The position numbers were made by a program, and so were the translations under genes. A DNA stretch of 64,000 bases from an uncultured Gammaproteobacteria bacterium (GTDB taxonomy: Bacteria; Pseudomonadota; Gammaproteobacteria; Pseudomonadales; Ketobacteraceae). The notes under the pieces were generated by a model. The model saw nothing but the letters and a program-made list of their open reading frames with translations. It had not been told where the DNA came from and did not search any database. The stretch spans positions 1 through 64,000 of the forward strand of contig CAJXZM010000009.1 in assembly GCA_913063125.1 (NCBI GenBank), in the 5' to 3' direction. Positions 3,355-4,381 of this stretch are shown piece by piece; within the stretch, counting starts at the first letter, position 1, and each line of letters begins with the position of its first letter.

Positions 3355-3876
3355 CGGTCACGAGAGGGTTACGTTGCGGCGCTTTTTCTTTATCTACTGC
3401 ATGCAGTCCATGGATATTAGCGACATTATTGACGTGTTTTCTCTTTTACAGCCTGTTGTTTCGTATAAAAATTGAGGAAGAAAGGCCTCGACGCTTCCAG
3501 TAAGGACTACGACTATGTTATTGTTCTATGTATGTAGCGGTCGTACTGAAGTCTTTCGATGCGCTTGGAAATTATGGTGAACCTAGGGCGTTCTTGGGAG
3601 GCCTAGGTATGAAAATTGAACAATATACAGGACTTACTGTGAAGAAAGGTGTTTTTGGGGCTAGAATATAGCTCACTTTCTACACTGTTATGTCGAATGA
3701 GTAATTAGTTAAGATAGAATTAGGCAGTAATCTATTGCTAGGTATATTGCATAGATTTAAAAGTGCATAATGAGAGGCCGCATTAGCCTCGTAAGGCTAT
3801 CGATTTTTCGTGTTATATTCGAACCGGTGAATTCGGATATATTTTTTATATTTCACCAACACTATGAGTAAAGAAG
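3355..3876. other. 520-bp gap with a short hairpin and two possible tiny reading frames
   Basis: No gene of ordinary size. At 3784-3799 TAGCCT-CGTA-AGGCTA forms a 6-bp stem followed by TCGATTTTT; it could be a terminator or part of the cold-shock gene leader. Two very short frames have good ribosome sites: 3515-3580 (21 codons, AAGGA 8 bases upstream) and 3609-3671 (20 codons, GGGAGG 7 bases upstream). Neither resembles a known protein. The promoter of the downstream cold-shock gene presumably lies between about 3700 and 3860, but I could not identify clear -35/-10 boxes. Confidence 0.35.
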
Positions 3877-4083
3877 ATGAGTAAAGGTACAGTTAAATGG
3901 TTCAACGCAGATAAAGGCTTCGGCTTCATTACACCTGAAGATGGTAGTAAGGATCTGTTTGTACATCACTCAGAAATCCAAGCAGGCGGTGGATATGCTA
4001 CATTGAGTGACGGTCAGGCAGTTGAGTTTGAAGTTGGCCAAGGTCAAAAAGGTCCTTGTGCAAACAAAGTTGTTCCTGTTTAA
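3877..4083 (+). CDS. cold-shock protein, CspA family
   Basis: 68 residues, the full length of a single-domain CspA protein. RNP1 (KGFGFI, residues 13-18) and RNP2 (LFVHH, residues 27-31) are intact, with the conserved [11 protein letters not shown] entry. Such proteins bind single-stranded RNA and DNA and melt secondary structure. The start at 3877 is unusual: the same bases ATGAGTAAAG occur 13 bases upstream (3864), out of frame, opening a six-codon frame (M-S-K-E-D-E-stop) that ends at 3884, inside the cold-shock coding sequence. The weak ribosome site (GAAG) of the real gene lies within that frame. An attC-like hairpin follows the stop codon. Confidence 0.93.
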
Positions 4084-4091
4084 GCTGCAGA

Positions 4092-4148
4092 ACATAACGA
4101 ACAAAGTTAGTCGGACGGCTTCGCCGCCCGCTGCTTTGGGCGTTGTAG
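4092..4148. repeat. attC-like imperfect long hairpin after the cold-shock gene
   Basis: ATAACGAACAAAG (4094-4106) pairs with CTTTGGGCGTTGT (4134-4146) apart from two internal mismatches. Inside this sits a second stem, CGGACGGCTTCGCCGCCCG (4112-4130), with one mismatch. TTAGT is unpaired on the left and CTG on the right. An outer stem with mismatches, asymmetric unpaired bases and an inner GC stem resemble an integron attC site. R-type boxes are ACATAAC (4092-4098; consensus RYYYAAC) and GTTGTAG (4142-4148; consensus GTTRRRY); both deviate at one or two bases. No integrase is in the window, so this would be a solitary site. It could instead be a terminator or a dispersed hairpin repeat. Confidence 0.4.
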
Positions 4149-4381
4149 CTTTTTAGGTGAATAGAGTACGAAGAACCTTCAACGGCATTTTCCCCAAATA
4201 TCACATAGATTTCCTAAATACCCGCAATTTGTGGTGAATCGTCTGCTGGGCGAGCACACAAGGCCTAGCAGTAGGCAATCTACATGTTGGCAATACTTAA
4301 CTATCCCCCTCCCGTTTATTAGATGACTCCCAGTTTGAACTCATGGCACCTATATTGTTTAGCCTGTGCAAAGGCGACAGA

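Follow-up and report, generated by a model that had tools for sequence, protein, structure and literature searches.

A very probable, worn attC site behind a cold-shock gene in a Ketobacteraceae draft genome, and the gene as a likely solitary cassette

A long imperfect hairpin lies directly behind a cold-shock gene (csp) in the draft genome of an uncultured member of the Ketobacteraceae, which raises the question of whether this hairpin represents an attC site of an integron and whether the gene in front of it was once a mobile cassette. In this study, the locus was analysed within a window of 64,000 bases (the whole stretch of DNA considered here), in the same genome and at csp loci of other genomes. 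It is highly probable that the hairpin is an integron attC and that the preceding csp is a gene cassette now alone in the chromosome (SALIN). Taken separately, the identity of the hairpin as an attC site is very likely, and the history of csp as a once-mobile, now solitary cassette is likely. The cassette reading is based on the attC register, the orientation and near-constant spacing of the site, the presence of csp in attC arrays of two genomes, the integrase and attC clusters in its own genome and the ending of congener units at the attC core. Judging from the available excerpts of the literature, cold-shock cassettes and SALINs are already in print, and no titles on a lone csp-attC unit or its leader were found in a partial literature search. 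The locus is therefore of a known kind, but its cassette history is traceable unusually well. The coordinates of its features are collected in Table 1.

Table 1. Features of the csp-attC unit, with positions in the 64,000-base window
Feature	Position	Strand	Basis
csp leader, pseudoknot-like	3808..3876	+	alignment A3 (24 leaders), pair counts and controls, model R2
csp gene, 68-aa cold-shock domain protein	3877..4083	+	ORF; Pfam CSD PF00313, 98.8 bits
attC site, worn	4092..4148	+	attC model R1: 28.4 bits, E 8.2e-5, 12/12 pairs standard
R'' box core TAAC	4095..4098	+	R1 alignment register; partner of GTTG 4142-4145 in R'
L'' box with extra-helical T4107	4102..4110	+	R1 alignment register vs array-site alignment A2
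L' box	4131..4138	+	R1 alignment register; partner of L'' 4102-4110
R' box GTTGTAG	4142..4148	+	R1 register; sequence common with two congeners stops at 4144

The covariance model R1 was seeded from attC sites of the same order, taken from arrays that adjoin an integron integrase, and none of these sites was picked for csp. Integron integrases were surveyed with TIGR02249 at E<=1e-80 and found in 85 of 194 genomes, from which 20 regions were taken; the R1 alignment contained 25 short sites from 10 of the 20 regions (four of the 25 being longer ones from the first picking rule or the duplex rule), selected by a duplex rule and then picked by eye. Two earlier picking rules had been dropped as too loose or too strict, and the simple motif TAAC(30-55)GCGTTR was dropped as too loose, with 17 matches in the window vs a shuffle mean of 5.4. 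The structure of the 25-site alignment holds, with 97.3% of cells paired and a covariation of 0.653 vs 0.126 in shuffles. When the window was searched with cmsearch at E<=10, R1 returned a single match, exactly 4092-4148 on the plus strand, which starts 9 nt past the csp stop codon and has the same strand as csp. The first-pass annotation had reported an imperfect long hairpin 9 bases after this stop codon and an attC-like fold, and both were confirmed by this independently built model, with the boxes in the attC register. In a control on 47 loci of other csp genes (458,029 bases), the R1 maximum was 12.1 bits, the control having run with default filters and the csp-locus scans with filters off, so that the two are not strictly alike. 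Across 14 genomes searched at E<=0.1, R1 matches occurred in 10, including four congeners with 16-21 each, and none occurred in G022, G024, G028 and G048. Moreover, the nearest outside relatives of the 3' half of the hairpin (in G043 and G015) are R1 sites within rows of such sites.

At the window site, all 12 model pairs are retained, two of them as G-T wobbles, and the single extra-helical base of the L box is at the expected place, where array sites often have G. The R' core fails the consensus GTTRRRY given in the available part of PMC10609294, in that GTT is retained and two of the last four bases differ; the site is therefore termed worn. Folding of 4080-4162 gave z scores of -2.0 for the top DNA strand (8 of 200 shuffles equally good), -3.1 for the bottom DNA strand and -3.0 for RNA (2 of 200 in each case). 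The minimum-energy folds retained the L stem and the terminal stem, partly shifted the R stem and added an outer stem, which points to the R box as the weak element of the attC site. In addition, AAGCTGCA at 4082-4089 is able to pair with TGTAGCTT at 4144-4151, giving a longer hairpin. This pairing, the RNA fold score and the plain hairpins that terminate many attC-less csp copies agree with a hairpin that, whatever its origin, has been retained to form the 3' end or a terminator for the csp mRNA, but the terminator scan left the site unflagged and the long stem is followed by three T only. Such an exapted transcript end is considered somewhat unlikely, and any contribution of the hairpin to the csp transcript end is a guess.

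An unrelated hairpin, that is, an ordinary terminator or repeat resembling attC by chance, would fit the moderate score, the degenerate R' box and the genome-level E of 0.008. However, the site is the sole match in the window, has the exact register and has the spacing seen in other csp copies, and array cassettes carry the same gene, which makes coincidence very improbable. The first-pass annotation had also offered a dispersed hairpin as the alternative to a cassette, and had proposed a genome scan with an attC covariance model together with a count of similar hairpins. In the scan with our own R1 the site matched, and in the count the 6.59-Mb genome contained a single copy of the hairpin sequence, apart from which the best matches spanned 16-17 bases; the dispersed-repeat reading was therefore rejected. 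An inverted repeat elsewhere (L014, 9418-9524) has in each arm 16 bases identical to the 5' half of the window attC, and this may be chance.

Integron parts are present elsewhere in the same draft genome (G000). One integron integrase lies over the cut-off (387.6 bits vs 265), on contig C22, and none was found on C9, the contig of the csp-attC site. At E<=0.01, at least 20 R1 matches were obtained, i.e., at least 19 besides the window site, and these genome-wide counts are lower bounds because 150 of 1017 first-look candidates were scored. At least 12 of these matches form clusters on contigs C231 (4), C286 (3), C117 (3) and C251 (2), and the remaining eight of the 20 listed, the window site included, are single on their own contigs at this threshold. 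The window site ranked 19th among the 30 R1 matches listed, with an E of 0.008; its score alone is therefore moderate, and register, position and comparison carry the rest of the attC case. Ten other single R1 places were inspected (L264-L272 and L275; three at E 0.02-0.03). Seven of them lie no more than 47 nt behind the end of an ORF that is at least 50 aa long, and it is therefore probable that this integron-bearing genome has several lone attC sites, the window site among them. These ten places are single attC-like matches behind unrelated ORFs and represent candidate further lone cassettes.

The lone status of the window site thus has a defined extent: no other R1 match occurs in the window, and the contig starts about 4.1 kb to the left of the site. 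The first-pass annotation had described the site as solitary and pointed to lone attC sites without an integrase; solitary holds as far as the contig extends, and an integrase and attC clusters are present on other contigs of the genome. As far as the excerpts on SALINs go, the locus resembles them in having one attC right behind one gene, with the integrase and other attC sites out of view. Unlike them, it belongs to a draft genome that has an integrase and attC clusters elsewhere, and its left side is visible for about 4.1 kb only. A separate observation concerns the integrase genes of G000 (L013, 453-1433) and of the congener G003 (L184, 1519-2559), each of which is followed by a membrane-protein gene on the opposite strand, the two being similar as judged by eye; on account of this shared neighbour, the two loci are probably one ancestral integron locus.

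The best NCBIfam model for the csp product was CspE, at 108.3 bits and under its cut-off of 120. The subfamily is patchy: within the order, 51 of the 390 genomes have it at E<=1e-20, among them the genome of the window and its four congeners, and it is absent at this threshold from ten other genomes of the family. In total, 58 of the 59 listed csp places were examined (G103:C205 was left out), and 62 rows yielded 58 distinct copies after removal of four repeat rows. An R1 match was located 3' of csp in 13 of the 58 copies, with scores of 16.2-47.9 bits, and the distance from the csp stop codon to the attC was 8-10 nt in 12 of them and 14 nt in one. For the weakest of these matches, the E value in the searched sequence was about 0.1, and they are credible because their place is constant. 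The other 45 copies had no R1 match 3' of csp, and many of them end in plain hairpins. An attC-csp-attC arrangement was found in two genomes: at L289, the same sequence as L067 from a Spongiibacteraceae bin, attC sites flank csp on both sides, and at L306 there are five R1 matches on one strand, with csp flanked by attC. These arrays, the constant spacing, the R1 match itself and the congener units at other loci support the earlier suggestion that csp was once a gene cassette.

The gap from the upstream attC match to csp is 88 nt in both L289 and L306; for PDF cassettes, the available part of PMC12690207 gives 25-28 bp from the recombination site to the start codon. Left cassette ends of the GTTATGTGT type were seen 5' of csp in G003, L067, L075, L306 and L348, and are indistinct in the window. 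Among named genomes outside the order set, Colwellia demingiae (L065) has an R1 match 3' of csp, and a Pseudohongiella bin (L071) has one at a greater distance. Against plasmids and phages, the query matched 158 and 13 records, respectively, which among the matches listed were mostly general csp genes or lookalikes, and no plasmid or phage record covered 80% of the query. Excerpts of PMC3856429, PMC1382264 and PMC10609294 describe cassettes with cold-shock genes in Vibrio and Aeromonas, which are like the present unit in carrying a cold-shock domain gene as an integron cassette, the likeness to the 68-aa subfamily being one of gene type. In contrast to those cassettes, the window cassette is solitary and has a long structured leader.

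Comparison with the csp loci of congeners was informative about the extent of the unit. The alignments begin at 3804 with G003 and at 3802 with G004, and both end exactly at 4144, the attC core GTT; the remaining flanks of the G003 and G004 loci had no match to the window flanks. The csp units of congeners sit at other loci, with three in G004. The G003 and G004 hairpins have the terminal stem in common with the window site and differ in the bases of the R and L boxes. With csp copies from other families, the alignment reached 4147 in G278 and stopped at 4101 in G161, the latter indicating that attC sequences vary between csp copies.

The first-pass annotation had proposed to look for the gene plus hairpin at the csp locus of close relatives: csp-attC units stand at other loci in G003 and G004, and in G002 the csp at the window locus adjoins the same metallophosphoesterase gene without an R1 match. 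In the G001, G003 and G004 drafts, the metallophosphoesterase gene and csp are on separate contigs, and in the comparison of G000, G001 and G002 the left neighbour was not the same. No clean empty site for the window csp copy was found in the congener comparison. At the csp locus of G003, the flanks are about 1.6-1.7 kb apart, vs 121-256 bases, without csp, in all four other congeners including G000; the additional DNA of about 1.4-1.5 kb is larger than one csp unit, so it was not a clean cassette insertion.

The main rival to a single insertion is the collapse of an old array, in which a former integron or CALIN at this place was reduced to a single cassette, with no single secondary-site insertion. 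The attC clusters on other contigs, the contig end about 4.1 kb to the left and the shared metallophosphoesterase neighbour in G002 are consistent with such a remnant. However, there is no other R1 match in 64 kb, and the congener units occupy other loci; an array remnant is accordingly judged unlikely. Two repeats were observed beside csp units. An element of about 230 nt (L040, 4469-4705, minus strand) ends at the start of a G004 csp unit and has five near-full relatives (73-78%) in G000, G001 and G002, of which the copy on G000:C64 precedes ORFs and a lone attC match; it was considered as an attI and dropped, with no match in the integrase stretches compared. Upstream of the window csp, 3466-3526 is a dispersed repeat of about 60 nt with nine partial or full matches (84-94%) in G001, G002 and G003.

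The best reading of the window site is that of an attC decaying in a SALIN outside an integron. In this mechanism, IntI would have cut out the csp cassette in circular form and integrated it at a place outside the integron. A cassette circle recombines at G/TT of its attC, and in the integrated form the bases after the G are those of the recipient. GTTGTAG is thus as expected from an insertion outside an integron: the bases of the R' box after GTT would derive from the target, which would explain why the box departs from GTTRRRY past GTT. These target-derived bases, together with later mutation, may have led to a site that recombines poorly. According to the available part of PMC1382264, insertion of cassettes outside integrons appears to leave a non-functional site. 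Cassettes inserted outside integrons or de-recruited (excerpts of PMC1382264), and attG sites (Loot et al. 2024, as cited in excerpts of PMC12444791 and PMC11023631), resemble the present case in that a cassette gene occupies a non-integron place with a site seemingly unfit for further moves; the difference is that the target site of the window cassette is not reconstructable. The present role of the unit is predicted to be csp expression at a fixed locus. The csp gene can be traced through several states: as a member of attC arrays, or solitary with an attC that is good, worn or missing. How cassettes turn into ordinary genes of the chromosome thereby becomes a testable question.

The csp gene is preceded by a structured leader, in which the loop GGTGA (3826-3830) of a hairpin (3815-3821/3834-3840) is complementary to TCACC (3853-3857), so that the two could form a pseudoknot-like fold. 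Across the 24 csp leaders of A3, the stem is variable and partly covarying; 90.6% of cells are paired vs 31-51% in slid versions, and covariation is 0.311 vs 0.172 in shuffles. The loop helix hardly varies, so covariation backs the leader stem only. The model R2 matches the window by construction, since the window leader belongs to A3, and it matches once in its own genome. In 20 genomes, R2 gave 20 matches, of which 19 were 5' of csp and one (L359, E 0.44) was dropped because it sits in another coding region. R2 matched 32 of the 58 csp loci, some by construction as their leaders are in A3. Ten of the 13 copies with an attC match are among these 32, and of the three without an R2 match one is cut by a contig end. 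The leader characterizes the csp subfamily and is not confined to cassettes.

No Rfam family reached its gathering score in the window, and a promoter scan gave nothing above chance. The cspA thermoregulator RF01766 is comparable as an element of a csp mRNA and matched weakly over 3738-4136, but at 28.7 bits vs a gathering score of 78, a comparison of score and not of leader folds. A structured leader travelling with a cassette would run counter to the common view that cassettes lack promoters and rely on the integron. Tentatively, and with somewhat less than even confidence, the csp subfamily might be a nomadic cassette equipped with a regulatory RNA of its own, in which pseudoknot leader, gene and attC travel together and, unlike the usual promoterless cassette, may work wherever they land, and which has been repeatedly captured by integrons, dropped into chromosomes of marine gammaproteobacteria and domesticated as the attC decays. 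The leader was also observed at loci assigned to several phyla, e.g., in a Delongbacteria bin (L091) and an Opitutia bin (L084).
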